Shown piece by piece: positions 6,772 to 59,944 of a stretch of DNA of 64,000 nt. This DNA is from Apostichopus japonicus (Eukaryota; Echinodermata; Holothuroidea; Aspidochirotida; Stichopodidae), in the NCBI RefSeq assembly GCF_037975245.1, contig NC_092572.1:1897501-1961500 (forward strand), read 5' to 3'. Every line of letters starts with the position of its first letter. Position 1 is the first letter of the stretch. The notes beneath the pieces are model-generated. The model was not told the DNA's origin. It ran no database searches and saw only the letters and a list, made by a program, of their open reading frames with translations. The translations under genes and the position numbers were made by a program.

Positions 6772-6904
6772 GTTATAGCGCGTCATACAGTATAGCTACT
6801 ACTATGCTGATTTCACTTTTACATTAGTTCACGAGAAGTGTGTCCGATAATAATTTGTCATATGCACGGTGTATTGAATTATTACAACGAAAGCAATTAA
6901 CGTC
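6772..6904 (+). promoter_or_regulatory. Conserved upstream region of pseudokinase gene 1 with an IRF/ISRE-like site
   Basis: About 130 bp directly upstream of the start codon align with 45107-45226, the same position in the paralogue. The best block is CTGATTTCACTTTTACAT at 6807-6824, identical in both genes. A GTTATA-CGCGTCA block lies about 30 bp before it. The reverse complement contains AAAAGTGAAA, which fits the AANNGAAA core bound by IRF-family factors. Whether this is promoter, 5' UTR or both is not decided. No clear TATA box is seen. Confidence 0.5.
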
Positions 6905-9900
6905 ATGTCTCACTTACGGTCAATGTTATATTGCTTATTCTGTGTTCCTTTAATCTTCTGCGGTAAGTGAATCATTGCATGAAGTCTGGTTTCAAACAAT
7001 GTTATATAACAAACTGCTGAACTTCTCACCTAATTATTTTGTAGATAAACAAGAACGCGCAGCTGAAGCTTGCAATGAAGTCGATGAGACTCAACCATTT
7101 CCGACTATTGTATGTAGGTGATGCCCGAGGATCCTGTCTGCCTTGTGTGTCCAGTTTATCAAGAAGTTGACGTGGAGTGGTTTACAGCTGAGACTCGAAT
7201 TACATACGGAAACTTTTATGTGGGGAAATATAACGATTTAAATGTAAACATCTGCCATCAGACGAAAGCTTTTTCACTATATACTTTTCAATATAGACTA
7301 TTTTCAATAATTATCCATTAACTTAACTGCAGTTAATAGGATCGCAGCTTAACATTAACAAAGACCAATATTGTTCAGCTGACCAGCTAATGCATTCTAG
7401 GCAACAATATTTCTAGGCAACAATAATTTGGATCACAAAAGCAGAATGCTTCTCACCTTTCACCAAAGAAAAAGATACGCGTACAATGTATATTCCACGT
7501 ACCACTGAACATATCGAATTTTCAGGATAGCTGCGAAATCTCAACACAACAACTTCCTTAACAAGTATAACTCTCCAGCTCGCAGCATGTTACATTTTGT
7601 GTATATGCAATAACAAATACAGAAAATCATAATACTTAAACACCACAGTATATCGTTTCACACATTGGTTGCGTTAATCTGCTGATATTCATCTGTAATG
7701 GTAAGTGAGTGAGAATTATCATTGCGGTGCTGTTTTTATATAATGCTCTACATGTGATCTTCAAACGTCATTCAATTCAAAATAAAACATTATAACCATG
7801 CTCTTAAATACCAAACAAGGTCGTATCATAACTAACAGCCATATCATTAAAGCATAATAAATGAATACCACATATGCTGCAGATAACCATTGCATTGTAT
7901 TCAACACAATATGTAATTGACAACATGTCCTACACTGCAGCTGTTGGAAACCATATCATTGAGTTTTGTTTTGTGTTGTGTCTAACGGACTGATCTAATG
8001 GAATGTGTGCTAAAATAGTCCAATCACTGTAATTAGTGACAAGGCTCTAAAGTTAGAATGGACAATTCTCAGAATTAATTGTCACATGAATGCAAAATGT
8101 ACTGGTGGTAGCACGTTTTTGACGGATAACATCTTATCAATCTTATCAATTTGATGCCCACAGTCATTCTGTAAGTTATGAATAAAATCATCCTACAGTT
8201 TATTCAAGTACATATTGAAATATTTAATGAAAATAGGGTAACACCTACACAAGACGAAGGTGGACAGTTTTGTGTGAGTGTGCGCTTACATGGTCTCTAT
8301 GGTTTTGTGTATTTGTGTGGCAAGACTAACGAACGATTTGTATTGAGACCACACCTTTACATTTATACGAACATATTTGTAAGAATTCAATATAGAATAG
8401 CATACAGTGTAAACATATTTTTACTATCCTTTTATGTTATTTTGTCTGGTAGTTGCAATAGTATTATACAACATATTCTATTGACATAATTCAGATGCTT
8501 AGGTGGGCAGCATGTGTCTGTGTAACGATATATTACTTAACAGGATATTGAATGAGGACAATGAACAATAAAAAAGAAACGGAACACTGTGCTCGTCTAT
8601 AGTCACCATCTAAACATCCCTTATTTTGGATATATAAGATACAAAATAAGTTACAATTGTTTTAAAGGTATAAAAAGCCAAACAAGGAAGTAAACTTAGC
8701 AATCTGATTCTATATAGGTCAAGCACATTATTCTACGAAAGCTTTTGATCCAGTTCTAGCTATGAGAAAATAGATTTTAGTCAAGTAGTTTGATGCAGTT
8801 TCGTAAGTTGTTTCCCTTAATAAGTAACATGAGGTCGACATTTAATTATTCTCTTGATTTGAGAACAATACGAATAATTTAATCAAACCCGGTACTTGAC
8901 AAACACGTTCATGATGTTTTCATGACTACAGACATGACGGACGTTAAAACAATAGGGCTCTCATTTTCCAGCCTTCGACCGAACGGGCAAATGTTTCACC
9001 CATGGGTGTTTGCACCAAAAACTAACTATTTCTTTCTTTGTCCCACTGACACTCTACATACAACACAAACTCCGGAAGAGTTACAACCACGGCAATTAAA
9101 AAACACGTGGGTCGTAGCGGTTGTTGTATTCGGTTTGATTTCCAGTGGCCTGTTTGTCTGTGTTTATATCACAGTCAGACAATTTAGATGTAGGTAAACG
9201 TGCTGTAAATACCTTTGATATTTAAAGTTAATGAACAGAAATATGGAATCATTTGTTTTATATAGGCTTACGATGTCAAATGATATCGCACTTTTTCAAA
9301 TATGATAAAAAAAATTGAACCAAGGCATGGAAGCACTATTCAGGGGTAGCTATAAGTTATTCAACATGACTGGCGCATTGTTTTTGTAATTACGGTAGGC
9401 ATTATCTTTTCGTTCACACTTTTAATAAATTACATCGTCAGATAATGAAATGAAAGATCATAATATGTTTAACAAGGGTTTAGTGATTGCTAATATGCAA
9501 TACATTTTCGATCGGTACATTGTAATCATCTGCGTCGCCTCTTAACGACTAATCATGTCACAAAACACTTGTATAGGGATGCTTCACGCAGGAAGTTTTA
9601 CAATTTGATTTCAAATTAAACAAATTAAAAAAATATAAAATAAGTTTTCAATATACATCTCATGATATAGCTTTACGATTGGTTAGTACTTTTGTTACCA
9701 ACAAAGTAATAGTAATCAGAGTTTTTGTTTCGTTACTTACTCTCACTTTGGAGGGATTGAACCGTATTCATTACTTCTCTGTCCATTTAAATTTTCAGTA
9801 ACAAGAAACAGGCAAGGGTTAGTATTATTTAAAAAAAAATATTTGCAAATTGATCATCCCCCCAAATCACTCTTGCAGTTCGCTCTTGGACGTCTGTATT

Positions 9901-12900
9901 AAATGTTGTTAGTTTGTTAGCTTTGGAGCTTAGTCAAATGACCATCAACGTTGATAATACTAAGCAACAGTTATACTCTACTTTATCTACTGTATCAAAC
10001 ACTTTATCACCATGAAAACAATTGAATTAGATATAAACTAGAAACTAATGCAGTTGTATAAGATAAAACACCGACTTTATTATTTTACAGTTAAACGAAA
10101 GAAGATATTGACAGAAGGGAGGTAAGCTATGTTCTTAATGTTCTTTACAACTGTATAACGGAACCGCCAAGCCTAAACTAATCGACATACTGAATGTTAA
10201 ACTTTATTCTAGTTACGATAATTACAGATAATTGGCATTGATATTAATAAGTCATGACATGGGTTATTGTGATAGGAGGAAAGTATTCATGTAACTTCAC
10301 GGGTTATCGTCACTGATTTTTGTAGCAGGAAAGAATTACCAAAGACACCTGTTGACGAGGAAATCTCACAAAACTCGCTCAATTCTGGAGGGAGTGAACC
10401 TAGTAAGTTTATTCAAAATATCGATAGTAATTTAAATGAATCAATTAAAACGTAAAATTCATATTATTTTTACACATCGCAAGCACTAAACAAGAGATGC
10501 AGATAACATTTGCCAACGAGAGTGTAATCCGTATATCTATAGAAGAAAATTGATACAACTGTTCGATACTTATGTCATTGTGTTATACAGTCCACCAAGA
10601 GTAAATTGTTACTAAGGGTCATATGGAGCCACTGCGTATTAATAAATACTGAGTAATTAAAAGATACACTCTCATATAGGTTATTTGTAGTACTATTTAG
10701 TATGTAATTTGCATGTTTATCACTTTAAGATATTTTCTCTTTCGCAGATTATTATTCTACAGCAGATGTAATTTCAGGAAAAGATCCCCGGATGTTGACT
10801 GAGAAAGACATTTCCATCATCATGGAAATAAAGATAGGAAAAGTCTACAAAAGATGGATGGGATCTATTCATCTTTCTAATGAGACCAATAAGTGTGTTG
10901 TAGTAACAACTCTAACAGGCTAGTAACATTATGATATACAATTATTGTACTTATTGAGTTTAAAGCCACGGTCAGATATTATATCATACAACGTATGTAT
11001 CGATTTTGTGTGCAACAACGGTAAACTGTTGGTAATGGTGTCCCTTATCACTTCATTTAAAGATGAGAGGGGATTAATCGAATTTTGCAACCAACCGCAC
11101 TATTTATTAATTCGTGACTATTTTTGGTTCTGTTTTTAGAACAACTATTTAGAAAGAAAGAAATTCATTGGGAGGCTTACATCAGAAAATGTCTCGAATT
11201 ACCAGCATCGAACCATCTAGCAAAGATCGAGGCTATATCTATACAAAGCAGTGAGTTGTTATTGTCCATATTTTATTAATCAAAATATAGTATATTGTTA
11301 ATCTATGTTAGTGGAATGCAAACAAAGCGAAATGAAGTCCATACATCCATATTTGTTCCGTTTTTAAAACTCCAAGGGTGACTATGTCCGCCAAGTGGAA
11401 TAAAAAGAAAATGCATAGACCGATGACCTGATATGATCTTCTGGTCATAATGTATATGAGAACAAGAAGCTTATATTTTTATCACCAACTTAATGAGCTT
11501 TCCTATGTTACAATAATTATATGCAGGACATTCCACATATGTTAACGTATTTTACTATAAACACGTTTTCTTTAACGTAGTTTCTTCTATTTTGTCTCTT
11601 GTATTGTTTAAGATAAACTGTTTCTTATCAGTGAACACCTCGTTTGTGAAAGTATGCACAAAGTCTTATCACGTGACACTAAAGATGAAAAGGACATCTA
11701 CTGCTGTAGCTCATTATCAGTTCCTGACGTCATCAAACATATATCAGGAATTTTGGAAGGAATGGACATTATAAATACGTTCGGGGTAAGTAATAATAAA
11801 ACCTTTGCATTCAATATGTAGCAACCTAAACAACGTATTTTCATATAGCTGTCTGATTATTGAGTATTATCGGCATCGTCAATGTTCATTAAAACCTATC
11901 TTTCTGTTTAAAAGATCATTTCTAAGTGAACAACGTGTTAACATTTTGTCTCATATTACCCGTTTGTGCTTCTCCACACATGAATCTAACTTATTGTTTT
12001 TTCTTCTTCGTTTAGTTCCTTCACCCTGGCTTAACAACGGAAAAGGTTTTGCTAACAAAAGGAGGGCAGGTCAAATTATTTGACTTCTGTCTGGCTCGCG
12101 ATGCACCGAAAATAGCTGCTCTCAAGAAAGAAAAGGTAAAATGTACAATGTAATTATATATTAATTACAAGATTATGATAGCATAACGGATAAAAAGATT
12201 ATATCATCCAGTCAAAGCACAGTCAGCGTTATATCCTGGTGTAAGACACATCCGTACCCTTGAAAACTGTATGCAAAAATGGCCTGAGGTTTTTCTTTGG
12301 AATAGTGCTACACGTTAGGCTTGTGCGTTCAAACTTTATATCGATTTCTCAATGTTAAAACATTTTACAATTTTCTGTGTCATATTAACTTATTATTGGT
12401 ATAACGAGGTCTGTGATGTACATATATAACAAAGAACAACATAAAACACATTAATTTAGCCTTCAGCGGGATTGATTTTTATTTCAAAGTGCCTCGATTA
12501 AAATATTGAATAATAGTTTGCGATAATATGCATGACTTGTTTGCGTCTTTGTACTTAATGAAGTCAGAGCAACTTCTTCTTTATTACGCCTTACCATAAT
12601 TTGATAAAGTTATCAACACATTCGCTTTAACAATGTCACAATGTAATAAATAGTTTTAGAAAATATAATGTCGCCCAATGCAGCAGCAATGTTTATCTTG
12701 CAGCTAATTTAATTGTGGTTTCTTACAACATTTTTTTTTTCATATTTATTTTTTACATAAGATTCGTTCCGTGACTTTGAATCAATTTCCACCTGAAATG
12801 TTGATGTTGAATCAATATACAGAATCCAGTGACGTGTGGTCTACAGCAGTAGTAATATGGGAGATTATGAAAGCTGGTAAATCAAACTAAATTCTTATCA

Positions 12901-14666
12901 AATTTTAGGCAGTTGCATAAAGAGAAAGTATTGACACTTTTTCAATGTTGTAGCATTAAATTAAACTGAATATACCCATGTCACATTTACAACAAAAGAT
13001 ATCCGGTGATGTTCTTAACTGTAAATATACATGTAAATATAAAGACACCTTGCGATTTATCACATGGGATACCGTCGACTTGATACCGATTGTAATTTTT
13101 GTATAATTACAATTTTCATTCACGGAAGACGTAAAATAATGTATTCATCTTGGAATCAATAATTAAGGACAATTTCTTGGTACTTGTTGCACCTCAAGCA
13201 TTATGCAGTGTGTAGAAGCAACGTAGTGTGTTCGATTAATAGGGAGAATAATAGGGAGAGAAGTTATGACTAGTTAATCAGGAACAGAAAAGACGGATTA
13301 TTGAGGTACTCATTAAGAAATATTTCCGTATTAGTTGTCTGTTTGAGAATACCTCTTAACTAATTAATCACATTATCAAGTATACCATACCAGTAGTTTG
13401 ACTTTAACCGCAGCTCATTAGGTTTACTGATATTATAAAAACGTGTATATAAAATGTAAATTATAACATAGCTAGAGTATATCTTGCCCGCTCCACATTG
13501 ATTTAGGAGGCATGGTAACTTTGGTGTTTGCTCAGTCTTCAGTATCAATGATTCTAAAAAACTACTTTTGTTAGGAATCCCACCATTTCCGGTTGACCGG
13601 GAAGTTAGATTTGACGAGGACATAATCAAACCATCAGTACCCTGGCCCGAGAAGTACTTACAGTTAAGGTTAGAAAGCATTATACCTCTTCCATAATCTA
13701 GTTTATTGCCAACATGACACTTTTAATATGTTATTATAACACAACAATATAGTAACCGCATAGTGTAAAACCGTTATATACCGTGTTCGAATTTTGTATC
13801 TGGATGTAGAACTGGGAACATTTGGAAAAGGATTATGAAGCATAGGAAGAAGTTACTCAGTTATGTTCTTTCATTTTGGTTTTACTAAGTGTATTATGCA
13901 ATGCAGACAACATAGTACATTAAGTAAAGAATACTGACTTTTTCTCCAAACAAAATCCTGATAAGTAAATGTTTTCATTGTCGATTATGATACAGATATG
14001 TAGTCCTTTTTTCAGTCGTTATTTTTCAGTTGTCGTTTTACTTAACCGATTGATAGCGCAAATCATTTCATAATGCCTTAATTCGTTTCAAGCATCTTGT
14101 AGTTTACATTTCATTAAGATCTACAAAGTAGATTCACATCTCGTTCATTCAGTTCTTGTCGTCTATTTCTCAAATATTTACAGAGATAAAATCTTGTTCG
14201 ATTGTTGGAAGTATAACTGTTCTCTTCGACCTTCCATTCATCAATTGAGAGCAACATTCGTAGCTGTAAGTAATCCATTACTCATATTATGTATCAACCA
14301 GTATTTAGAATGCTGATAGTTAACAACAGTATACTTTGCTAAATAGTCTGCTTTGCCTTTGAAATACTTCAACTCAGCTTTTTTTTTTTTTTTTTTTTTT
14401 TGGGGGGGGGAGGGCGGCAAAAACGGTTAATGTACAAAGAAAGCACTATAGCTGATAGTTACTTAAAATTTAATGCTAATTCTACTTTGCTCATCCTGAT
14501 TTTATATCCTACATTAAGTACTCATATTATCCCTCAACAGATATTTGAGAAATTAATCACGGACAGTTCTTACGAGATACCGATACCTACGACGTATTTA
14601 CCTATGAGAACCCCTGATACCACTCAACCTACCTATGCAGAACAAATCTACCATGCTGGAAAGTGA
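6905..14666 (+). CDS. Receptor pseudokinase 1: signal peptide, broken Ig exon, TM, tyrosine-kinase-like domain
   Basis: Exons read by eye: 6905-6962 (19-residue hydrophobic signal peptide), 7045-about 7321 (Ig-like, broken), 8932-9189 (stalk and one TM helix), 10091-10121, 10326-10402, 10748-10918, 11140-11250, 11613-11785, 12016-12135, 12762-12876, 13575-13668, 14184-14265 and 14541-14666 (stop TGA). Intron phases agree from the TM exon to the end. The last exons follow kinase order: HPGLTTEKVLL replaces HRDLAARN, FDFCLA replaces DFG, then SSDVWS...VIWEI, and CW...RPS of the C-lobe. The VAIK lysine is absent (VVVTTL). With all three catalytic motifs lost it should be a pseudokinase. The tail holds YEIP, YLPM (a YxxM motif) and YAEQIY. 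The Ig exon has a one-base deletion relative to the paralogue, giving TGA at 7119-7121, and its second half has no counterpart. The gene may therefore be a pseudogene, or may be expressed without this exon. Donor 9190 (GTAGGT) and a GC donor at 10919 are atypical. Confidence 0.75.
7045..7321 (+). pseudogene. Frameshifted, truncated Ig-like exon of pseudokinase gene 1
   Basis: Aligned with the intact paralogous exon 45371-45691, the frame runs to ...TIVCR and then meets TGA at 7119-7121. Skipping one base restores DPVCLVCPVYQ, EWFTAETRI and CHQT, matching DPVCLVCPVYQ, IWFIAETRI and CHET. After about 7270 the similarity ends, and a stop at 7319-7321 closes the frame. The C-terminal Cys-containing strands and the donor site seen in the paralogue are missing. 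A sequencing error could explain the frameshift but not the lost second half. Confidence 0.75.
14379..14410 (+). repeat. Poly-T/poly-G composite homopolymer
   Basis: About 23 T are followed directly by nine G within the last intron of pseudokinase gene 1. The poly-T lies about 140 bases before the final acceptor. Such runs are prone to length error. Confidence 0.9.
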
Positions 14667-18540: not shown

Positions 18541-21500
18541 AAAGATACACATCATAAAAATATAGTGAAACATTTATGGAATGGAAAGAACTGAGTTATT
18601 GATGTCAATTGAAAAATGCTAAATACATGTATTTTGTTTTATTTCTGTTATGGTCGGAATAAATTTGTTAAATATTATCCGTCACGACACATCTACAAGA
18701 TAAGGAGAGGATAAACTGTTACACTGTACATAACTAACTCACATACGCAGATGTGACTCAGCAAAAAAAGCTGAAAGTGGTTCATCAAATATAATTTCCA
18801 AAGTGTGATGTGTGTGTTTATTTAATCTTTGACTTTCTATGAGTTCAACCAAGAGAATATTGTATCTTTAGAAGATAAATTTCGATCGACACTGCAAAAC
18901 TTGTTCGGTGATGAGGCCAGCTTGTAGTAAAGGAATGTAATAGCCTTTATTTATTTTACTTTTGCCTTTTGCTACAGATACGTACTAGCACATTGCTCCT
19001 TTATAGGCCTACTCCTACATGAAGACAAACATTAAACAAAAAACTGAATTTGCGACAACTACAGATAATTGGATTGCAGAAACATGAAAAAAGGCATTGT
19101 AAATCTCCATTTTCCGCATGTAAATACATAATTATCATAGCAAATATGATGTTCTTTCCCTGTTTTGGAACCTCAGCAGCACTGGAGTAACTTAAAATAC
19201 ATTTGATCATTTATATCAAACTCTTACTGTATTATTGAACCAAACTGAAAGGACCAAAAGGTATGTTTCTCGTCATTCGACACTTTGTTCGCTGCATTAC
19301 TAATACATGCTAAACCCTTAACAATCACGACAGCTTTACGCAATAACATAATGACGACAACACAATATAAACTACATACAATGACGTACTGTATATACAG
19401 AATCCTATGCTATATACAAACCTATAAATACTCTCAGTATTAACATAAACCATGGTTGATGCAAATTCTAGCACCGTAAATGGTACAATAAAAAGGGGTT
19501 GCAAACCGTTATTAACCAAGCAGAGTTGTACATCAACCCCAAACCGGTTCCTCAAGGTCTACTGAATACAACAATCTTTTATATAGTTGTTTTAATATGG
19601 TAATAATAAGAGTATAACTGGAAGTGGTAACAATAACTGTTACTGGTTCTTGTACATAGCTACTTGATCACTTAGGTTTCTACTGCTTTAATATCCGTAA
19701 ATTCCATTATCGTCTCGGTAAACATCCTGCGCACTTACTAACTTGAATCATTTAATACATGTCATAACTTACCGAGAGGTTTTTCGTTTCTGTTGGTGAT
19801 CTTAAAGATTACAACAATTTTTGTTTCATATCTGCTTTGTTAAAATTATATATGAATACAGTTTAATAATAATTGAAGAATATTAGTACATTGGAATTTT
19901 GAACTTTGGCCTCAGCCACTAGGTGGAATGTTTGATAACAATCGTATACACAGTAAAGATACATAAACCATGCAAACTAGGGAAACGTCTGGTTTCAGAT
20001 ACAGCTGAATCATAAACGACTAAGTTAGGAAAACAAACTATCGTATGGTTTTGTAACCCTTATAATATTCTAATTTATATTCAGTTATTAGTCAAGGAAA
20101 ACGGAGATCATGAACCTCGAATGAAGGAATTATAACTGATATAAACACAAGAAGGGGCCAATTGGTCAATAAGTGGCGAAAATAATGAAACTTAACCAGC
20201 TGTGGTATAGTGAAACATTCCACGACGACCTTGGTATTGCAGCGTCCGTTCTCTAAGCCGAAAAGAGTTACATTTATGTCCGCTGACCTTACAATGACAA
20301 ACCAGGGCATACCCACAAATGGGTGGGGCTTGGTTGGCAAACGAAGACTTTGTTATAACAATGGCCGCTTCTCAACTTCATACACTAATCACTGTATCTT
20401 GAAACTATAAGACATACGTTTTGCTAAACAATATTAATGAAATAATCAGTAGATGGGTTGGGCCGAAGCAGTTATATGTATTTACAAATAGATAAAAATT
20501 ACTATGTGAGAATCACATAAGATGTGATTGTTACAAAATAATTTTAAAAACGAAAAGTGCGACTTATTAACATTGAAATTGAAACTAAGAAACACAACGT
20601 CACATATTTGACTACAGTGATGACATCACGCACAAGGCTGATCATAATTCATAATGTCATATTTTGTGTATGAAATAAATCAATTCATCATTGCATAATA
20701 CATGTAGATTCACGTGTATTCCGACTGCAAATAAGACTAAATTGAGACAGGGCTCAAGGCTGACATTTCGATTAACAAACAAAGGCTGAATAAAAGCATT
20801 GTATTTCTTACTGAAGTGAGTTTATTAATTTAATTTTCCTTCTTTTCCTTTTCGGTGCTGATTTTATTTTCTCTTGACACTGATAAATATCAGTCAGCAT
20901 GTTGGTTTTATAAGTATTGTTATTAAACTTTTGCAAGTTGTATACTAAGCGTTGTTCTCTTGTTCGCTTGTCCACTTCTCCCACTCTCCATTTTTGCATA
21001 AACGCTCATAAGAGGCATCTTCATTCTTGCGAAAAACTGTAAAATTAAAAGAACATTTTTAGATTTAAAACGTCATTACAAATATTTAACACCAAAGCAT
21101 TTACGTGTATTTCTTTATTTATTTTTTCTTTTCCTTTGATACAGATGTTCAATGGATTATTAGATAAAAGTATAAAAAGAGCTGATATTTAGTTAAAGCA
21201 AATATTGCTATACATCTTGTAACAATTTCTTATATTGATTAATTAATGAACCATGGCAGCACACATTTTCTCGTATGTATTCTTACATTTAGTTTATTTT
21301 CCAAGGTTATTCAATCATTTCAGTGTTAAATAAGAAACCGCTTAATTGTATAATGCATGCATTGCGTGGGGCCTCAAGTTATACGTTTTTCGAAATAACT
21401 TTACCTTACTTAAAATTAGTTTTGGTTTATGTTATTTTGAATATGTACCTTCAGTCTTTTCGATATCAACAATATCATGTAGTTCCTCTTGAGAAAGTCT

Positions 21501-22272
21501 TTCTGGGATTTCGCTGTCACAAAACCTTGGGAAAACGAAGAAGAGATATTGAACAGTATTAATCTTTTGCACACGTTGACTTCTCAAAGTATGTGTGTTA
21601 CTTTTTATCGTTGGTTGATTATAAAACCTACAGACAACGAACGTCAAACTTCTTTAGCACAATATTATGCCATACTGTGCCATGATTTGTTTCTGAAACG
21701 ACAACATGTTCATGCAAAGTATAACACATAATAGACTTTAATACGAATATTAGCTTTAACATTTTCCAAAGCAAATCTCAATCAATTTGGAGGAAAAATA
21801 AAATCGTTAAAAAGTCTCTCATAATGAAGTTTGATGCCGCCAATTTTAGAGTTCAACATGTCTCAATTTTGGGTGTGAAGGCTTATAAACAATAATTATA
21901 ACATTACTTTCTTTATTGATTTTAAGGGGAATCTTTTTCATTTAGCTCTTTATAGGAAGACATGAAACAGTATAGTGTTCCGTTTATTTGGTTCTATGTT
22001 AATGACGGTTACATAATTTTTTGGGCGAAAAAATACACTTTAGCTATATCAGCTGTGAACAATGTCAATTTGTGTACTTAGTTTCATTCTTAGCGGACAC
22101 GACAAGATAGGACATTGGTCTATACATCATCAGTTTAGTTATATATGGTTGCTTTATAAATGAAAACTTTGCTTGTTAAAAAACCCGTAGCGATACCTAT
22201 GCTAGACAATACTTTAGAGAGAATTAATATAAAACTCATGAGAAGAAAAGAAATAATTCAAGCGTCACTCAC
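18541..22272. other. Intergenic region and possible 3' end of Ig-TM-NACHT gene 1
   Basis: No independent gene was found. NACHT gene 1 must continue on the minus strand beyond 22273. A candidate acceptor (TTTTACAG) at about 21037 would add a short terminal exon, 21036-21021, in the right phase and end in TGA. A longer minus-strand open stretch follows at 21034-20950, but in the wrong phase. The overlapping open frames at 20092-20410 on both strands show no similarity and are probably chance. Confidence 0.45.
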
Positions 22273-25200
22273 TTTATTTTTTTCGTCGTTTGTGGAACCT
22301 TTTCCATCACAGCTTTGAATTTAGCTTTGTCTGCTAAATGGACCCCGTGAAAGACAAGCCGATCACGGATGCTCGGTAAACTGCTCAATCGAACAATTGG
22401 TAAGTCTCCATATATCTCCAAAGATTCAATCGTGATCTGTTGGCCCAAAGTATTAATATCAGTGTATATTTATTTGTTTCGGCAAACCGTATTTTATCTT
22501 AGACTGTTTTTTTCACCGTTGTTATTGCGGGTAATTTGCTTTGATTCACATTAATGAGAATATGTGTGCTACAAGTTAAATGCAACAATGGTGGTAAACC
22601 AAGCGACGTATCTGATGAAGCTATTAGGAGAATCGATTGGAATTGACGTCATTCTTGATGATTACACTTTTACAGTCAATCAAGATACTTCATACCGACA
22701 TATATAAAAAAAAACGTCTAGTCAACATTTGGAGCCGACCGTCAGCTCAAACCGTCAAATTGTAGAAAGAAGAAACTTAACAAGCTGTTCATCTACTGCA
22801 ATTATTTAAATATAGTTACATATTATTAAATACAATATAATGCTGCCAAGATCGTCAAGGCGGCCACAGACGCAACCACTAAGGACACATTTCAGCTAGA
22901 TGATAGACAGACAATATAACTGGCCCGATGAACATTCACTGGCATAAAGTACATAGGAAAAAGGGATAAAACATGAAAGGAGAGATATAGCAATAGTTAT
23001 CGAGACGAATTGAGACTAATAATTAAAAAATGATAATTTCTTTTTTTGTTTACCCACATGAATTCAGTATGACAACAACTCACATTATCTACTAGAAAAG
23101 CAAGTTTGCATGAGAAGCAATAATGCTCATCGGATAATTCAAAGCAGGATGCTAACACATGCTTTCGTTTAAGAAAATCAAATTCTTTTCTTTTCTAACT
23201 ATTTAATATAATACAATATTTGATACACCGTTTATACCCTTTAGGTTCTTTACTAGGTACAAAATGCTAACGTAAAATATGAATGTGTTAGCAACTTGAG
23301 GAAATCTAGAAATGGCTTAATCCTTACTTCTGTCTTCTTGCAACTCTTCAACAAGTGCAATATTGCGTCTTGGTAATATTCTTCTGTGCTATGATTGAAC
23401 ACCACCTTCTCCAAATGTAACATGTCTGCATGTTCTTTGTATTTCTCTTCATCTAGCGTTCCCACTTCCAGTAAACATGCTATTAGATCGCATTTACCGA
23501 CTTCCAAAAGATTATTGATTGCCTTAAGCTTGTTTTCAAAGAACAGAAACAAATTTTTTTCCAGCATTGTATTGTCTACCCTGTTTGTATGTAAATAAAT
23601 CGAAGCAAACAAGCGAGCAATTAATGGAGATCTTGTAATATAATCTTTACAATTAGAAACAGTTCTCATCTGAGATTGCCAATTTTCCAAAATATCTGCA
23701 ACAATTTTGTAATTCAAGGGTCTCTCCTCGGGATTAGGTGTTTGGTCTTTCCATTCCTTTTGCTTTTCCTCTAACATGCTGTACACCTCGATGTTTTCCT
23801 TTTTTTTTTGGTTTTCCTTCTCTTGCCAAAATCTTTCAAAAAACGCATTTCTTTGGATTTCGGTAAATCCGAGAACGTCTACCCTTGTGTAAGGTTTGCT
23901 CATAACTTTCAAATCCTTGTCAATGTTACGAGAGGTTACCCAAAGTTTCATTTTTCTAAAGTTACCAATATTACCCTTCAAGATATGCTCCACAGGTAGC
24001 CTCTTCTCACTGACTACATTCGATATATTATTTTTATTATTATTATTATGAAGTCTTGACCAATTGCTAACTCCATCTAACATTACAATGCTATCTTTCC
24101 TTTCTAATTCCAAAATTAAACTATTAGTTTCTTCAACAGAGTTTTCGCGGTTCAACAGTTTCATGAGTTCATCCAATATACAAGCGTCTTTGGAAAGATA
24201 CTTGAGCTGAAGGTAAATGAGAATAATATCTTTTAGAATGTCTCCATTCTGCCACTTTCTTGATATGTCCCGAAATAAATGTGATTTGCCAATACCAGGC
24301 TCGCCAATAAATAATACTCTGTTATCCCGCTCGTCCCTGGATAATGCCTCAAGCAGCTTATAGGTATTATTAACACAAGATGTACCGTTGTCTTCGTACG
24401 TTATCGAGAACTGAGAATCACAACACCAGCTGTCACTGAATGAGACTTGTTTTAATTCTTCCAACACATTAGTCTGTTTTACTTCTTCCAACAACGTTCC
24501 TATCGAAAAGAATAGAAAAATAACCAACTTTTTTTAAATGACTTTGTAATGTATTTTTACCAAAAGTCTCCCTCAAACTCAGGCAACACAAACAGACTAA
24601 GTATCATTTATTGCTTCAATATTTGATAATTAAAAAGAGGCCATTAACGATCTCTTAAATTTATTCCTCTGGTTTCTATTCACCCACAAAATTAACAAAC
24701 AAAAAAACAGAGCAAATAAATGATGCCATAACCTAATTTTGTATTTGAAAAGTGCATTAAGGTTCAACAGGCATTTGAAAGAACATGAACTAATCGATGC
24801 GAGTCCTATTACAATTCATAAAAAAAGAACGTTCAATTGTACCTTCTAAATATATTCTGGTATGGGCATTCGCAAAAAAAAAAAAAAAATGAGAGGCGGC
24901 AAGCGCACTTCCATTGTCAAAAACCGATTAACTGTCCAAAACATAAACTTATTAACCAATTAACCGTCTACATTGAATTGTGTATTGTCGTGGGGCATGG
25001 GTAAATGATGTTCTAAGAGGGACAGCAATATCTACCAGATTCCAAGTCTTTGTTTAACTATTAGATACCTCCAGCCGTCCGGACATGGCTCTCACGGGCT
25101 TTGTCTGTTATGGACAGTGTCTAGAATTTACATTATGGTGATTTTTAGGAGAGCGTTTCTTTTCTGTTTTCTTTTCGTTTTGTGAAGGCCGATTTCAGTG

Positions 25201-28200
25201 GATGGGTGCATTTTCAAAACCTATTACCAGGTCGCTGTACTGGCTGCATTGGCCTAGCCACGTTGCTTTCTAGTGATCATTCTCTAGATTTTGGGTGAGT
25301 ACCGCAACATTTATGACCATTTAATCAATTACAGTTCGATAACTACGTTAATCTTTGTAAGTTCGGCAGATGAAGCGACTTGGAACCTGGAAACATCTAT
25401 CAAAGAGGTGTGGAGTAGATCGATTTTGAGACTGTAGAATGAAGCCCCGGAAGTTCCAGCATAATCAGCTTTTGTATTATGCTGACAATTGCATAGCACA
25501 TAATTACATGTCAGAAAGATAAAGTACTCTTTAATACTGTGGAATATATTTCATACCCCGTACGATGAAATCAGATGAGCCGGGGGGGGGGGGCTCAGTG
25601 TCGTAAATAAATGTCAGAGAGAGTTATGGACATTCCCAGGAACGTACTCCTAGAAAGGGTGGGGGTCCTGGGGTATTCAGTTGTAACATTTTTTTCTTTT
25701 CATATATTTTTCTATAAGTGACTCATTAAAACTAAAAAGATTACTTAAATATATGTGTAGCCCCTATGGGGTCCAGAAGCCGTAGTACTTGTAGCGGGAA
25801 CACTTTGGCATAAGTTTTGCTCTAGTTCTCACCCCCCTCCCCCTCTAAAAAAGAATATTAGAGTAATCCTTCCTTAGTTCTACAGTCCATACAACTTTTA
25901 ATCATATGCAGAACGTAAGCAGTTGAAAATTCTTCAACATTGTATCAAAAATGACAATATCTTATAGTTTTGACATGCAATGACCGCTAGCTTTACCGTA
26001 ATTCTCACAAGGGAAAGTATGTACGCAGCTGGTAAAATCCCTACTATTAGGAAGATAATTATCACAAAACATTTTACAACCTCCCCCACTCCCGTAATAA
26101 AGATGGTGATTTTGCCCCTTGTTTATAGTTGTTATTATATTTGTTTAGTTGCCAAGTTAAACCAAAAATGATGACTTCAAGAAACTATTTACATTTTGGA
26201 ATTGCTACGTTATCTATATTTGCAACATTTAAATCACACGGAGTCGGTTGAATTGTCAAGTTATCTTAATATGTGATCATGAAATAAAATAGTACTACAA
26301 CCAATGTTTGAGATCATGTGTTATAGACTATACGTGACAACTCGTCAAGAACCGATGTAAGATTTACTAAGGAAGCAGTGGTGAATCTCATTCTTTCAAA
26401 TACGACTTAATAAAGTAAACGAATTTACATACTTAACCCAAGATATTACCTTGCCATCCACCGTGCCGCCGATGTAGCTTATAATAAAATATAGCTAAAG
26501 CAAAAAGAATTATCCCCACGACAGCCAAAACACACGAAACAATTACTTGCGTTGGAGAGCTCATCTGTTTCGTGTTGTCTTCATTGCATTTTTCTGAAAA
26601 GACATGCGTCACAAAGATGGAATGTTAGATTCACTCCTTTGTTGATGTTGACATTGTCCGAATATCTTGAAGTTAAGTGACTATTATTTTGTGATACCAC
26701 AAGCTCCATGTGTCAATTAACATCCTCGGATTCTTATCTGATCAGGTAAAATGATCAACACATCGCTTATATAATCGTGTAATACATATGTATTTCTTCC
26801 TACATGATAAATATATATATAAATTATGACAGTTGAAAAAAGAAATACATTTCTTTGTACTTAAATCAGGTTGCGTATTTTACTATATTCAATCGGGCTT
26901 TGATACACTTATGTAGCTGCAAATAAAGAAATGAACATGTGCATTTTGCATCACGTTTATCACTAAAGAACAAATATCTGTTATTTTTTCTATAACTGTA
27001 ATTAACTAACCATATCTTATTTTCAAGTTTACATATTGAATGTAATCAGTTTTATTACATGTATAAAATAATTTTTTACTAACACAATGGGTGCTCATCG
27101 TTTACAAGACTTACCTGATCGAATGTTAACTGTCTTATTCCCTATTTTCAACAACTCTCTATTGTAATAAACAGAGCAGTGAAATATGGCATCTTCTGCA
27201 CATTCTAATTCGAAGAGAACTGTAGTAGAAGTATTCCAGGTATCTGTTATGTTATTCTTGATCTCAAATGATGTCCTTTCGGTGATTGTAGTATTATGTC
27301 CTTCGACACTCCAATACAATGTAACATTCGGGCGTACATGTTCTATGTAACAAGTTAAACTAGTAGGATTGCTGGATTTAACTCTAATAATGCATTCATC
27401 GCAGTTAGAACAAGACTGGACGAGAGGACACGGAGGTGTCGGCGTAACTTCAAAAGAATAAAAACATATAAACGTGGATTTATGTTGGTTGCGACAATGC
27501 AATTTAGTTTAAAATTAATTGTAACAATAACAGTGAACGTAGAGTATTTGAATGAGTGGATCTAACTTCAACTGAAGATATATTTCCAAAATTGCATCTA
27601 AACTTTCTTTTACTTTTGTGAAGTTCAATGTTAATATAAATCTAGTTATGTAAGACAATGTGTGTGATGGAAAGTGCTACAAAGTTTGTCTACGCACATG
27701 AACTCTCCAAAAACAAAAGTCACAAATTATTAAATAGAAAGCTGATTAAACGTATGTCTTACTCTGAACATTCTGATGGAATATTTTTAGATATGAACAA
27801 TGCAGATATCAAGACCGAATCTTAAAAAGAAAAGAAAAGACAAAGACAAAGAAGTAACATGAAAATGCAAACACCAAGCATCATAATTGGTAAAATTCTC
27901 ACCTATAATCAAGACTGAAATAGACCGTCTCCACACGGTTCCGTTTTCAAATATTACAGCATATGTGTAAGAGGCCTCTTGTTCCAGCCTAGCATTGATA
28001 ATTTTCATATTACCTTCAGAGGTGATGTCATAATGGTCATCATCATACTTTTCTCCACCCTTTACACCATTCTCTAATCTAAGTATTGGTTGAGTCAGTG
28101 ATATTGATCCCTGGTACCAATAGTATTCCTCGACGTTACCGCCAACGTCACAGTATATGGTTTTGGTTTCCATTATCTCGACATGTTGATTCGTAGGACA

Positions 28201-28474
28201 TGTTTGGCAAAAACCTGCAGGTAATAGAACAAAATCTAAAATATTGTTGAAATATCGACGTTGTCCAAAATTTTCGAGAATATTACCCTATGTAGAAATA
28301 TTGATCTTTCTGTAAGGATTTCTTCAATGAAGCGTTTGCTACAGTCCTCGATTCAACTAATGTCGTGAAGGGTTCGGTTACTATTACGTAAGACCTTCCT
28401 ATTAACAGTATTAAAAGTACGTTACCTTGCACCACGAGGATGGACAGCATGAACAAAGACGAAAACATTATCAT
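22273..28474 (-). CDS. Ig-TM-NACHT receptor 1
   Basis: Minus-strand exons, all phase-compatible: 28474-28426 (MIMFSSLFMLSILVVQ signal peptide), 28214-27903 (Ig-like, V-type, with a YYWYQ strand and SYTYAV), 27447-27115 (second Ig-like, with SLTCYIE, LYWSVEG and IFHCSVYY), 26593-26450 (one TM helix, about residues 248-269, followed by basic KLHRRH), 24499-23328 (NACHT) and 22436-22273. The predicted protein exceeds 724 residues. The NACHT exon has Walker A GEPGIGKSHL (about residue 345), a Walker B-like SIVMLDG (about 415-422), KLWVTSRN as a sensor-like strand, VLGFTEIQ and SPLIARLF. No LRR, death or CARD domain is visible. The exon-final donor at 22272 (GTGAGT) means at least one further exon. 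Several Asn-X-Ser/Thr sites lie in the Ig domains. The NACHT domain would face the cytosol. This architecture matches no family I know. Confidence 0.85.
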
Positions 28475-38224: not shown

Positions 38225-41200
38225 CGTATTTTATTAGTATTTGCAATTTGTGTGTAATCTGGATCTTGCGAAAACCGAGGGTTGTAAAAGTCTACTGGAT
38301 TTTCAACCTTTGGTAAATAGCTAAGCAGACGGATCGGGTTATCATCATATATCTCCAACGAGTCGAGCTTTACCTGTTTGCATGAAATAATAGATTTACA
38401 TTTAATTACCATATTTCTATATATCTATATTAACGTCAGATGTGAATTAAAATAAATAGTTCTTTTATCTGAATTTTAAATAATGTAAACGACGCAGGGT
38501 AAATTCCATCATTTTCAGTTTCTTCTTTCTGGGATTTACTTAACTTCATAAGTACAAATATAATTCGGAGACTTTGATGCAACAAGATTTCTCTGTTGTA
38601 CCAAACGAGTAAAAAAGACACGGTTTTGTCTAAAATAATGTGTGTTTAACTCGTCAACATACAGTTTTATGTCTTAAACAAACAATCGCTTCGTTTTAAT
38701 TATATCGCAATGACAAAAAAATAAGATGAAAATTAGATCAATGTAGATATATAAACCACTTACACTTGTTTCATTGAGAGTCGTCAATAAAAGCAGTATC
38801 GCTTGTTTGTAGTAATCACTTGTGCTTTTTCTGAACACCAGCTTCCTCATTTGTAACTTTCTAGCATATAGTTTGTATTCCTCTTTGTCTTTTGTTCCTA
38901 CTTCTAGTAAACATGCTAATATATCAAAGTTTGTAGATTGCGTAATAAACGTGACGGTTTTACCCTCTTCAAAAAAATTGAAAAACTTTAGTTTTGTACT
39001 TCCGTTAGTATTTAAGTAGACTGACTGAAACAACTTAGCAATTAATGGAGAAATAGTGCGGTCAAGATTATCGTAAATGTTCTGATCCTTTTTAAAGTTA
39101 TCTAACATTTTTTGCAGAGGTGTTTCAGCAGCCCATCGTTGTCGTATTCCCTCTACAACTTTTAATATTTTCCACATTTTTCCATGCATCTCAATTCCGA
39201 AAAAGTCTTTCATTTGTTGTTTATTAAACCCCTGCAGTTTTACCCGAGTAGTATGTTCGTGAAAAAGTTCTTCATCATCGGAAGTTATCCAGATTTTCAT
39301 TTTCTCGTACTTGCTAACTTCAGGATCCAAAAGCTCTTCTACAGTTAGATTATGTTTATATACATTGTGAAGACTCGATGAAGTGATACTAAGCCTTGAC
39401 CAATTGTTAATTCCATCTAACATTACAATGCTTTTTTTACTTGTTAAATCATTGTGTAGTGTTTGGAAAGCTTCCTCAGATATTTTATATCTCAATTTTG
39501 TTAAGATTTCCTCCAATATATTAGCGCCTTTGGGAACATAATCAAGCTGAAGGTATATCAAAATATAATCTTGAAGAATTTCTCCATTCATCCACCTCCT
39601 TGCTATGTTCTGGAATAAGTGTGATTTGCCAATACCACGTTCTCCACAAAATAACACTCGTTTATAATGGTCGCCCCGGCAGAAATGGTGAAGAAGTATA
39701 TCGTCGTTGTTTGCTGCTATATTTCCTTGTCCACTTGTTATTTTATGCAACGTTATCTGGTAAGTGCTATCACTGCACCAAATTCCTCTTAAGGGAATGT
39801 AGCTCTGCTTTAAATCTCGTTTCAACGTACCTGTAATAGAATCGAACAATCGTAAACGTTTACAAAATTACATTGACTACTTTAATGATAGAGAAAAAAC
39901 CTAGCAAAAGCATGATACATAAGGAGACCTGAAGTATTCATTATAACACCCAATTAGCACGTCTCAACAACAGGAAGAAAACGGAACGAAAATTGGTATA
40001 CGTATGAACATGATAACTACTTAAGAGAAGTCACCTCTCGTATGGTAACACAGGGAACACATCGTATACGTGGTTGGGGAATTGCCCTACTGTGACATAA
40101 GCTAATATTAAGCCAGCTAATATGTATTTAGGGAACAACAACAAATTATAGTATGCAAAACTATTAAAACAGCTACCTTGTTTACGACACCACTTCCATA
40201 GTCCTAAGCAAAAGACCCCTGTTATTGGGATGCCACATATCACATCGATCAGAAATATGCTAGCCGTGATGATGTCTTCGTTAGCACGATTGTCTGATAA
40301 ATAAGATAGAAAGTCACTATTAAGAAGGCATTTATCCATCCACCAGCCATCCATCCAGCAAACCAGCCACATATACAAATACAAGTGATATTAACATGGT
40401 TACATCATACTGCTATCGTATTGTACCTTTTGCAGAGAAGCGCAAAAAAAAGAAGTGCAAATACTTATTAAATCGTTTCCCTTACGCTTCTGAAATGAAG
40501 ATGACATAACGATACAAAAATATGTTCAGATTTTGTAAACACACTATCCAGGAAGTCGAACAATTTTCTTATTATTGTTTAAGTAAACTGAAAATGCGTA
40601 ATACGAATCATTATCAAAGGGCTATAAACGTATTTAATTTGTAAGAAATGTCTTAAACTGTAGCTGTGCGCAGGGTGGATCACGTGGTTAATGTGCTCCT
40701 GTGTCACTCGTGTACACGTATGTTTGAATATATCTCATCCTATATTCCATGTATATATCCGTATATCTAGTTATCGGGTATCAGGTAATGTAGACATTTG
40801 CCTACTATGTACTACATTTTGTTTTGATAACTTAGTTGACTAATTACAGTATATTTACAGAATGGCCAATTGCATAAAACTTAACGTGCTTGCCGAACGG
40901 CAGGGAACTTCCTATCAACAGTAATTTCTAGAACATCAATATGTGCGGTCATACAGATACAACTAGACATGCACATATCTAATAGTGCTAATAATGATTC
41001 CGTTAGCAATGACGATGACATTGACGATGTGTTACATACATCGTGTAGTGCGAGGTTGGGTTGCTTGTATAACTTAAGCCCCTTAAATCATATATAAGAT
41101 TTTTTGATTAGCATGTTACGAGCTAGCTATGTATAAGCACGCATAAATGTCGTAAATTTTTCCTTTATATCTTGCAATGCATATATAATCCGATATGTTT

Positions 41201-42950
41201 ACATTTTCTGCATTTTGTTTACATATGTTCAAGACTGACTAATTGCAAAGTAACTACAATCAAAGAGAGATTCACTATTTACTGATATGACGTCATTCAC
41301 GTGACCAGCTCAACTCAAATTGCGGCAATTGTGCAATAGCGCATAGCTCAAGTCTCTAATTTCATACTGTCGATTCAATCTCCTAGTAAATAAAGTTACC
41401 ATCAAGAAAAAGGTGGGTGCAATAATACTACAATTTTAAAATGTGCAGAAATGTTAAAACGGGAGTTTATAAATAGCCTCTGTGAACATAAGTCGATGTC
41501 GCTTATACTCCAACAAATCGTTAGCAATCAATGCAAGCTGATGCATATTGGTAGTAGTAAACTTAAATGTGAGGAGTTGCAGGAGGTTTTCAATTGTTGA
41601 AAGAGACCTAGGTATCTACATTGACTCATCTTTGCAACCTTTTAAACATTGTCGCGAAGCTGCTAAAAGAGGAAATAGGGTCTTAGGTATGATCAAGAGG
41701 AACTTCAGTTTTCTTAAAGAGGACATAGTTGTTAGGCTATATAAGTAGTTGGTTAGGCCTCATATCGAGTATGCTGAGCAAGCTTGGAAACCATATTTTA
41801 CTAAGGATAAGGAAGTACGCAAAGAGGTCCAGAGGAGGGCTGTTAGGATGAATAGTTCTTTAAAGGGTGTTTCTTATTATATGCGGTTACAAATGTTGAA
41901 TCTCACCACACTAGAGCTTAGGAGGTTACGTGGTGACTTAATTCAGGTTTTCAAGCTTGTGTATGGTTTTGACAATTGATCCTTCACTGACTTTTTCATG
42001 TTTGCTAATAGTAGTTGTACCAGAGGTCATTGTCTTAAACTCCAAAAGACACAAAGTAGGATTAATAATCGGCATATTTTTTTTATTAGGGTTGTGAATG
42101 AGTGGAACGATTTGCCTGAGAAAGTTGTACTTGCAAGTAGTGTCAATGGGTTTAAGAATGCTTTGGACAAGCACTTTAAGCATTGTAATCGGGTCTGAGT
42201 GTTTGTCTTCAGTTTTTTTCCTTTCCATAGGGTCATTGATGGGGACTTGAGTGTCCGTCCTGATCCTATATTTCTACTAAACTAAACTAATAGGAAGCAT
42301 TAATCTATTAAACTTATATTTAAAAAATGGCCAAATAGGCGTTAAAAAGATAATTTACAAAAGAAAAGTCTGGTCTCATACCTACTTCTGCTACCATCGT
42401 CGTCATTGACGACATATGTCACGTGTGTTCCATTACATGTTTCTCTAGATAGGCATATGCCAAAGCAATGCTACACACTACAGATAAAACAAATCTAGCA
42501 ACTGATTCTATTTTATAAACATGTCCAATCTTAGTCATTTATAAACTCGACGACCATGCAAAATTGTTCTGACCATGATCTGAAATATAGTCTTGCCTAT
42601 ATCAAGCTACGATTAAACAGGAAGTTTGACAGAATGTACATGTGACTAATATAAAAACTTACCAAATGCACTTTGAATAGACATCTCTCCGTTGGTAATC
42701 TTCTGTTTAACTTTGTAGACTACAGTTTTAAACATAAAAGAAGTATATGTGTTATTATCCTTCTTGGTTTCTAGAGATGTCTCGCTGTATGTTGCTCGAG
42801 TTATTGTCACATTCGAAGACAAATGTTTGTTTAGGGACACTGTGTTAAAGTAACACGTTAAGCTGCTAGGTTGGGAAGTTTGAACTGTTATGATGAACTC
42901 GCCACAGGTATGGTCATATGTAAGCGCTATCACAGGTAATGTTGGAGTCA
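38225..42950 (-). CDS. Ig-TM-NACHT receptor 2 (5' part not found)
   Basis: Minus-strand exons: 42950-42663 (Ig-like, homologous to the second Ig of gene 1), 40293-40177 (TM helix ending in basic KWCRKQ), 39830-38764 (NACHT) and 38373-38225. All junction phases (1,1,0,2) equal those of gene 1, and all four exons are open. The NACHT part has Walker A GERGIGKSHL, SIVMLDG, and SPLIAKLF. The sensor-like strand is KIWITSDDEE, so the Arg of KLWVTSRN in gene 1 is lost. In the Ig domain the first Cys (SLTCYF) is kept, but the strand-F Cys (HCSVYY in gene 1) is missing. Neither a signal-peptide exon nor a first Ig exon could be found between 42951 and 45226. They may be lost, very diverged or disrupted. 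The donor after 38225 shows that at least one more 3' exon exists. Confidence 0.8.
41500..42290 (+). mobile_element. 5'-truncated LINE fragment (CR1-like), RT C-terminal part and 3' tail
   Basis: Plus frames read KLMHIGSSKLK, DLGIYIDSSLQP, NRVLGMIKRNFSF, VRPHIEYAEQAW, EVQRRAVRM and RRLRGDLIQVFKL. This is the typical order of the thumb/C-terminal region of CR1-type non-LTR reverse transcriptases, here with a few stops and frameshifts (for example at 41746-41748). The fragment ends in a short ACTAA-type repeat at 42274-42290, consistent with the short 3' repeats of CR1 elements. It lies in the intron between the Ig and TM exons of NACHT gene 2, in the opposite orientation. Confidence 0.88.
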
Positions 42951-43774: not shown

Positions 43775-43842
<68 letters not shown>

Positions 43843-45226: not shown

Positions 45227-51964
<6,738 letters not shown>

Positions 51965-57900: not shown

Positions 57901-58642
57901 TTTTATTTCAAATGTTGGTTATATGACGACTATGTCGTCACGACAAGCTTTTTCGCACATATTTTCCAAGTTCAACTGACCACGTGATCATTGATGTTCT
58001 CCATTATACAAAACTATTGTTCATAATTTTATATCCTAGCTAAATGGTTATAATAATAACGAATTCTAATTTTGGCATGCGCGTAATGTTCATACTTTTG
58101 GTGTTGTTATTTGTCATAAATCGCAGACAAACTACACCTTTTGCATAGCTGTATATGACATTGTCCCATACAGTTTATAATTACATATTGATGCCTTTCT
58201 TATAAATTAATCTTCGAAACAACTCCCTCTGCCCAAGGATCCTTAGTCGTTAATATATTGTCAATAACACCTAACTTACCAACTGTATCTAACTAAGGCA
58301 TAATCTTTGAAACACTAAATTTAACGGCGTGATCGCAATCGATCGCTAAGCTAGAATTTTTCTTCAGCTTAACAAAATTGGTGGCGCTATGAAGCAAACC
58401 ACGACGCTAGACAACGAGATTACAGTTTTAGGAGGAAATGAGCGACAATTTTTGTAAGAACTCTCCCATACACCTAACACACACAACTTACAAACACCTC
58501 ACACAAACGGCCACCTCAAAAACTTACCACCCTTTTCTCTCCCACCTAAAACTAGAATCTTGGTCAGCAGTCGAGGCAACCGGCAATAGGAAGTAGAATT
58601 AGCTTGTGGCGATTTATGCAATATTATTAAATAATATTATGA
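51965..58642. other. Gene-free intergenic region
   Basis: No coding exon with recognised similarity was found. It includes the partner of the 3000-3560 sequence (about 54200-54720) and three related short blocks at 55965-56370. The 105-codon minus frame at 55804-56121 overlaps one of those blocks and shows no similarity. Confidence 0.5.
55965..56370 (+). repeat. Three diverged copies of a ~45-bp block
   Basis: Related blocks begin at about 55968, 56203 and 56319. Each has a G-rich start, then (T/C)TG(A/T)(A/G)ATACAT(T/C)C, an (A/T)GA stretch and TT(A/C)GAATT or TTTAATTTC. Spacings are about 235 and 115 bases. Similarity is modest and purpose unknown. Confidence 0.4.
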
Positions 58643-59944
58643 AATGTGTATTATGTATTTAACATTACTGTTGGGCATATAACACATATACTCCTTTCGG
58701 ATATTCGAAACGTAACGGAACAGAACGTTCGACAATGATCTTTAGTGAAAACTGTGTTGCAACTATTAGTTGTAAACAATACCATTCCAGTTTTGGTATA
58801 AGTCTGCCTCTGAAGAGATCATCTTATTATCGATTTGCATCGATTTTAAATCTCGCTTACTGCTTTTGTCTTTCTGTGATAACAATGAAGTACAAGTGAA
58901 GGTCAGAGTGAAAGTCAAAGTGTAAGTCAAAGTGAAAGTCAAAGTGAAAGTCAAAGTGACAACTCTTATATCGTTTATTTGTTATTATTTAAAATATCTA
59001 TGAGCATGCTTTAATTCTATTAGATTACTCTCTTAGTACAATATAAGGGGAAATAATTAACTAACATTCTGAAGTCATTGTTCTTTATGATAATGATGTA
59101 TTAGTGTTTTAATTTCCCTACAAGAGAACAATAAATCACTGAAACACTGCGGCTACACCCCCTCCCCAACCCAAACCCAATATATATAGTGCTGAGATAT
59201 ATTCAAAGGTTTACAAGAGGAGTAATTCTTCTGTCTGACATTTAGTTGTGTGCTTCAAATTGCTTAAAGGCCACGAACTACCTAAAAATGCTGCAGCTCT
59301 CGGTAGCTTCCTCGTTGGTGTCTCAGCCAACAATTTAAACCAATGGAAATACTTCCTACATGTAAAGATTCATAAGTTATACAGTTAAAAAAAGCAAATT
59401 GTTCATTTTAAGGATGGTGAATAGAACAGTCACTGCATTTGATCCCTAAAAGCTAAGTGGTATCGAAAGCGACGTTTCTAGGTCAAGGCAGCCGGTACCG
59501 ACAAAGAAGAACACCCATCTACTGATGCCAACACACTAAAGGAAATGGGTAAAATCTCTCCTGAAACTGGACATTGAAAGGAAATTCTTCTTCATGGAGA
59601 AAGCATAAACGTTCCATATCCGTGCGTCCACGGTGTCAAATATAAAACAAAATTACCAAAAGTCAAACCAAGGTTGGACTTGATGATTATGGTTTGTCCT
59701 TCAAGGCCCATATTATATTCCGGTGCCTCTCCTTGATACGCTACTATCACCCCATATTAAGAGGATTGACATGGATCCAAACTTTAGTACGGATCATAAT
59801 GGCATGTGAGTTCAGCGTGATACCTGCGTGATATATTAATCACATGACTACACTCACATTTCAATATTAACATTAATTTATGCGTTATTTGAAGGTAATA
59901 CAATTACACCCTGACTTGTTTATGTTTCATAACGTATTAATTAG

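Follow-up and report, generated by a model that had tools for sequence, protein, structure and literature searches.

Sea cucumber proteins with Ig and NACHT domains

NLR-type NACHT proteins are generally regarded as cytosolic sensors. Here we describe a gene of the sea cucumber Apostichopus japonicus, gene 1, whose predicted product carries two immunoglobulin (Ig) domains outside the cell and a NACHT module inside it. Gene 1 lies on the minus strand of a 64,000-nucleotide stretch of contig NC_092572.1 (C12; forward-strand positions 1,897,501 to 1,961,500), which we call the window and within which the features of genes 1 and 2 are numbered. An earlier note on this DNA knew of no described family with this domain order, which is incorrect, as AjNLRC4 (PMC8699970) and AjNLR-new (PMC13133943) had already been reported from the same species. 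The 2021 account of AjNLRC4 (MN607598) describes a membrane protein with extracellular Ig, intracellular NACHT, and neither CARD nor leucine-rich repeats (LRRs), mapped as Ig-like 31-132, Ig 251-353, transmembrane (TM) 483-503, NACHT 600-757, and TM 776-795 (PMC8699970). That account locates the protein to the membrane of coelomocytes and reports that the ectodomain binds microbes and polysaccharides and agglutinates microbes, that dimerisation follows infection with Vibrio splendidus, that the inner part of the protein binds beta-actin (dissociation constant 5.87 uM), and that the protein drives actin-dependent phagocytosis involving beta-actin and Arp2/3 (PMC8699970). Its Ig part is also described, in a further report, as binding caspase-1 once internalised (PMC11932488). 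AjNLR-new (PIK48001.1, 1197 aa) is presented as having two TM segments flanking its Ig part, and its authors placed NACHT outside and Ig inside (PMC13133943).

Gene 1 shares with AjNLRC4 the species, Ig outside, a TM segment, NACHT inside, and the lack of CARD and, at the sequence level, of LRRs, and with AjNLR-new the combination of Ig, TM, and NACHT within a single membrane protein of A. japonicus. Seven AjNLRC4 primer and small interfering RNA (siRNA) sequences, searched with up to three mismatches, gave no match in the 264 kb surrounding gene 1 nor in loci L001-L008, and gene 1 looks like a different gene of the AjNLRC4 kind. The published topology of AjNLR-new is opposite to that of gene 1, where the hydrophobic N-terminus comes from an exon of 17 aa with the look of a signal peptide; we suggest that the first TM segment of AjNLR-new may also be a signal peptide, which would reverse its topology, and that the NACHT module of AjNLRC4 may contain its second TM segment as a buried helix. 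The vertebrate NLRs NLRP3, NLRC4, and NOD2 have a NACHT fold with a P-loop like that of gene 1, but they are cytosolic and possess LRRs, a death-fold effector domain, and acidic residues after Walker B, three features that gene 1 lacks at the sequence level. Our analysis goes beyond the published accounts in finding a same-strand gene cluster, an apparent exchange of ectodomains (no literature search was aimed at exchange), the loss of the acidic pair, and a tail that is possibly a vestigial LRR.

An eight-exon gene for a predicted surface receptor

Gene 1 consists of eight minus-strand exons with AG/GT at all junctions and intron phases of 1,1,1,1,0,2,1. Exon 1 (E1, 28426-28474) carries the start codon, encodes the signal peptide (aa 1-19 have a hydropathy of 2.06), and ends in a phase 1 donor. 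It is followed by three exons of phase 1-1, encoding a V-like first Ig domain (E2, 27903-28214), a C1-like second Ig domain (E3, 27115-27447), and a stalk, TM helix, and basic stop-transfer signal, KLHRRH (E4, 26450-26593). Exon 5 (E5, 23328-24499) encodes NACHT and the helical region after it, with Walker A GEPGIGKS and Walker B IVMLDGVSNW. The C-terminal tail starts in exon 6 (E6, 22273-22436; phase 0 in, 2 out), continues in exon 7 (E7, 21449-21525), and ends with the stop codon in exon 8 (E8, 20945-21036). The 780-aa product runs from the signal peptide (aa 1-17) through two Ig domains (~18-231), the TM helix (248-266), KLHRRH, NACHT, and the helical region to the tail, with an ectodomain of ~247 aa and NACHT beginning at ~aa 340. 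The earlier note had placed the signal peptide, two Ig, TM, and NACHT exons and 22273-22436 on one strand with phases 1,1,1,1,0, and all of these were confirmed with AG/GT junctions; its gene end at 22273 was wrong, as E7 and E8 with the stop at 20945 complete gene 1, and 22273..28474 covers exons 1-6 only.

A protein search with gene 1 joined up to exon 6 as the query (8000 candidates scored) recovered at least 12 homologues, all from A. japonicus, nine of which (P0001-P0009) have Ig, TM, and NACHT and match at 48-92% identity across 96-100% of the query. These nine are annotated as “uncharacterized” or “Ig-like domain-containing”, and two of the models are defective, P0008 lacking the signal peptide and P0007 part of the second Ig domain (Ig2). 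The best annotated relative among the matches listed is P0001, at 92%, and none is letter-identical to gene 1. Because the alignment with P0001 spans the whole joined protein (100%) at 92%, and because the genes of two annotated homologues, P0007 and P0005, lie close by and share the exon order of gene 1, gene 1 is confirmed, beyond chance, as a real eight-exon gene for a predicted Ig/TM/NACHT surface receptor. Outside A. japonicus, the named close matches included no other echinoderm and one sponge (Dysidea avara) among the at most 8000 candidates scored per search. In P0010, encoded outside the window, the second Ig exon is spliced in frame onto the NACHT exon and the TM exon is skipped; as exons 2, 3, and 4 are all of phase 1-1, soluble forms would be possible in the manner of P0010. 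NACHT exons are abundant in the A. japonicus genome (671.6 Mb, 35 contigs), with at least 106 matches over the cut-off among 488 candidates, the window's own two left out, and many of these are arrayed on contigs C7, C12, and C16.

Profile searches with Pfam identified NACHT clearly (E 4.4e-12, over the cut-off), while both Ig matches of gene 1 fell below theirs: C1-set at E 8.6e-4 (20.0 bits vs. a cut-off of 21) and V-set at E 0.013 (16.2 vs. 26). The Ig signal is stronger in the relatives, 9 of the 12 homologues having a V-set match at E<=0.1 (best 1.4e-9). The TM helix has a hydropathy of 3.15, and since the 19-aa stretch ranking third, which is the strongest beyond the TM helix, reaches only 1.40, a single TM segment is predicted. 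N-glycosylation motifs are distributed in the expected direction, albeit weakly, with 6 in the 214 aa of both Ig segments and 5 in the 501 aa from aa 280. No death-fold domain, CARD included, was found among the Pfam matches of P0001 at E<=0.1, and the N-terminus of gene 1 is occupied by the signal peptide and Ig, as had been suggested; the proposed single-pass surface receptor with an Ig ectodomain and a cytosolic NACHT is likewise supported by annotated homologues in which these exons are joined. The AlphaFold2 model of P0001 has a mean predicted local distance difference test (pLDDT) score of 37.7, and only its residues ~133-240 (Ig2) score 70-82, the remainder being unusable.

Two other gene models were rejected. 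One was an independently starting NACHT gene, as no in-frame ATG precedes Walker A; along the NACHT open reading frame (ORF), an in-frame ATG first occurs at 24164, downstream of that motif. An ATG reported earlier at 24527, just before the NACHT acceptor, is absent, and the sole minus-strand ATG between 24440 and 24600 is at 24469, out of the NACHT frame. The other was a gene extended downstream by exons for LRRs or a death domain; full-length relatives stop ~56 aa past exon 6, both missing exons were located, and Pfam found no such domain.

A same-strand gene cluster

Two further genes, those of P0007 (C12:1984070-1990973) and P0005 (C12:2056570-2066071), lie 58 kb and 131 kb, respectively, from the start of gene 1 on the same strand, and both have its order of Ig, Ig, TM, NACHT, and three tail exons. 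The P0005 exons match the contig at 97-100%, apart from one last exon at 94%; those of P0007 mostly match at 97-100%, with tail exon 7 at 85% and one best Ig2 match being P0005. There are additional Ig pairs at C12:1843798-1844851, 1822003-1823222, and 2031107-2032331, together with pieces of NACHT at 1841646, 1852461, and 2026485 (26-38% identity), and all family matches in ~274 kb are on the minus strand. An automatic scan for TM exons found one in all three known genes and in loci b and c and in none of four control stretches; it found none for locus a/e and none upstream of locus d, and it overlooked that of gene 2, the second copy in the window. The pairs at 1822003-1823222 (locus b) and 2031107-2032331 are of the P0009 type, with 85% and 88% mutual identity and a TM exon downstream of each, and the first Ig exon of locus b contains a stop. 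As read from the genome, the Ig-TM-NACHT layout is that of a clustered and constrained gene family.

Gene 2 (38225-42950, minus strand) looks like a degenerate paralogue. It has an Ig-like exon (42663-42950, phase 1-1) with 36% identity to Ig2 of gene 1 and no Pfam match at E<=1, a TM exon read by eye (40177-40293, phase 1-1), a NACHT exon (38764-39830, phase 1 in and 0 out) with LDGINNW at Walker B and a Pfam NACHT match at 8.2e-7, and the first exon of a tail (38225-38373), which has phase 0 in and 2 out like its counterpart in gene 1. The two NACHT exons are 37% identical over 407 columns, and neither a V-like Ig exon nor a signal peptide was found for gene 2. Between its TM and Ig exons, the plus strand at 41500-42270 resembles, by eye, the end of a long interspersed nuclear element (LINE) reverse transcriptase; the minus-strand ORF at 41941-42273 has no Pfam match.

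Constraint and ectodomain exchange

Between gene 1 and the P0007 gene, the ratio of nonsynonymous to synonymous substitution rates (dN/dS), with saturated dS pairs left out, is 0.23 for E2 (108 codons), 0.30 for E3 (111), and 0.38 for E5 (386). The Ig and NACHT parts of gene 1 have thus both been kept, and its tail is not visibly constrained.

P0009 differs from the rest of the family in its outer half. Its first Ig domain is 28-33% identical to those of eight others, except for 39% to P0008, and its second 21-28%. Compared with P0004, P0005, and P0007, the Ig part is 29-31% identical, while the TM exon reaches 62-87% and NACHT 79-83%, and the step in identity coincides with the E3/E4 boundary at ~residue 231. 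When columns were resampled 1000 times, P0009 was nearer to P0004, P0005, and P0007 than P0001-P0003 are in none for Ig and in all 1000 each for TM, NACHT, and tail. The P0009 ectodomain therefore looks to have been exchanged exactly at the boundary between the Ig and TM exons, and the phase 1 introns would permit such an exchange without a change of frame.

The NACHT module and the tail

Walker A (the P-loop) is intact in gene 1. The two acidic residues expected to follow Walker B (DGxDE), however, are replaced by S-N in 12/12 aligned members (DG[IV]SNW) and in P0013-P0018 (6/6), and by N-N in gene 2 (DGINNW). For P0004, P0005, P0006, P0008, and P0010, the residues were taken from the alignment column, as the motif pattern had matched an Ig stretch. 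Hydrolysis-driven cycling is unlikely given the lost pair, and the NTP-driven oligomerisation proposed in the earlier note, with which the intact Walker A would agree, is doubtful. The NACHT fold in the predicted model of a paralogue aligned best to NLRP3, NLRC4, and NOD2.

The absence of LRRs, also proposed earlier, holds at the sequence level: no LRR family is among the Pfam matches of gene 1 and its relatives, and hhalign comparison of 14 tails with four sponge-type (NLRC3-like) LRR stretches gave a probability of 0.1, with shallow profiles. It is less clear in structure, as the predicted model of P0014 shows an LRR-like alternation of strand and helix at 384-465 (pLDDT ~57-80), and the tail may be a vestigial LRR.

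Proposed mechanism and alternative explanations

We believe, with a probability of roughly 0.6, that gene 1 is a member of a clustered group of sea cucumber single-pass receptors of the AjNLRC4 kind in which NACHT serves as a ligand-clustered scaffold. The Ig pair would meet a ligand on a microbe or cell, and binding would cluster the receptors, so that the NACHT modules gathered under the membrane would act as a scaffold with bound nucleotide and not as a switch driven by hydrolysis. This scaffold would then recruit cytoskeletal or signalling partners, as in the case of AjNLRC4 (beta-actin, Arp2/3, phagocytosis), and the Ig half and the TM-NACHT half, linked by phase 1 introns, would be exchangeable among family members. 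Several points weigh against this. Gene 1 is known here from genomic sequence and annotated relatives, and it was set beside AjNLRC4 (MN607598) by published description and primer and siRNA sequences. As published, AjNLRC4 has an ectodomain of 482 aa, a second TM, and a caspase motif (177-LRTD-180), none of which fit gene 1, with its shorter ectodomain, one TM, more N-terminal NACHT, and no second TM after NACHT. The improbability of hydrolysis is read from the motif, and E6 (56 codons) has dN/dS values of 1.15 (vs. the P0007 gene) and 1.25, with no visible constraint. Finally, identity between gene 1 and P0001 is 99% in E1-2, 97% in E3, 98% in E4, 88% in E5, and 81% in E6-8, so that the Ig exons are better conserved than NACHT, unlike those of a fast-evolving pathogen sensor.

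This last pattern would suit a receptor for cell-cell or self recognition, as in adhesion or allorecognition, in which the partner of a conserved Ig surface would be endogenous or homophilic and contact would be passed on to the cytoskeleton through the NACHT scaffold. We consider this unlikely, though it accommodates the stronger constraint on the Ig exons than on NACHT (0.23 and 0.30 vs. 0.38), as well as a weak Ig-pair match to the cell-adhesion protein SYG-2, which ranked on top in a profile comparison with solved structures (E 0.0011). However, antibody chains score similarly to SYG-2, the high identity of the outer half in gene 1 and P0001 is perhaps due to gene conversion, P0009 and loci b and c have very different Ig pairs, and AjNLRC4, with the same layout, is reported to bind microbes and polysaccharides (PMC8699970). 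A canonical NLR switch at the membrane, with oligomerisation driven by ATP hydrolysis and ADP-ATP exchange, would explain the intact Walker A and the resemblance of the fold to NLRP3, NLRC4, and NOD2, but we regard it as very unlikely in view of the acidic pair missing from all 12 aligned members, P0013-P0018, and gene 2.

The remaining alternatives concern the gene itself. Decay or silencing of gene 1 seems slightly less probable again: its model rests on genomic sequence, its best annotated match is only 92%, the adjoining gene 2 is degenerate, and a stop interrupts the first Ig exon of locus b, yet the eight exons are open, the splice sites are intact, and dN/dS is 0.23-0.38 over the 605 codons of E2, E3, and E5. 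Least probable, and only barely to be entertained, is a false joining of two adjacent genes, one for a secreted or TM Ig protein and one for a separate cytosolic NACHT protein. Models P0011 and P0012 do begin at the TM exon, P0014-P0016 begin inside the NACHT exon, and P0010 is shortened and without the TM exon; against this stand the missing start codon ahead of Walker A, the full-length annotated relatives, and the order of Ig, Ig, TM, and NACHT repeated at the P0007 and P0005 loci.

Other features of the window

The two Ig-TM-NACHT copies are adjoined by paralogous plus-strand loci at 45228-51961 and 6900-13700. Each has an Ig-like exon (45334-45696 and 7118-7318; 63% identity over 51 aa), labeled by eye and without a Pfam match, and downstream of it a kinase-like exon (50508-50696, Pfam PK_Tyr_Ser-Thr 3e-8; 12708-12887, 3.9e-8). 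As read by eye, the kinase-like frames have HPA and HPG at the expected HRD and no DFG after it, and these loci possibly encode Ig-TM-pseudokinase receptors. The window ends (1-1500 and 58640-64000) form a direct repeat of ~85-97% at the protein-frame level, the second copy being interrupted at ~59000-62970, and long runs of AT dinucleotides occur at 47440-47700, 51427-51645, and 43778-43840.

Implications for sea cucumber receptors

Ig-TM-NACHT proteins place a NACHT module beneath a surface receptor, an arrangement whose published basis, as we found it, is one laboratory and two proteins, and a clustered, constrained family makes this layout much firmer. A receptor whose Walker B is no longer followed by the acidic pair would be predicted to work without ATP hydrolysis, and P0009, as a putative natural swap, permits ligand binding and signalling to be tested separately. 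It is tempting, if still speculative, to consider that A. japonicus has a transmembrane NLR repertoire in which ready-made Ig ectodomains are swapped across phase 1 introns onto membrane-tethered, non-catalytic NACHT scaffolds clustered by ligand, and, since the two plus-strand loci seem to join an Ig-like ectodomain to a kinase-like domain whose catalytic motifs are also lost, that the locus might more generally turn out Ig receptors whose signalling modules have no catalysis.

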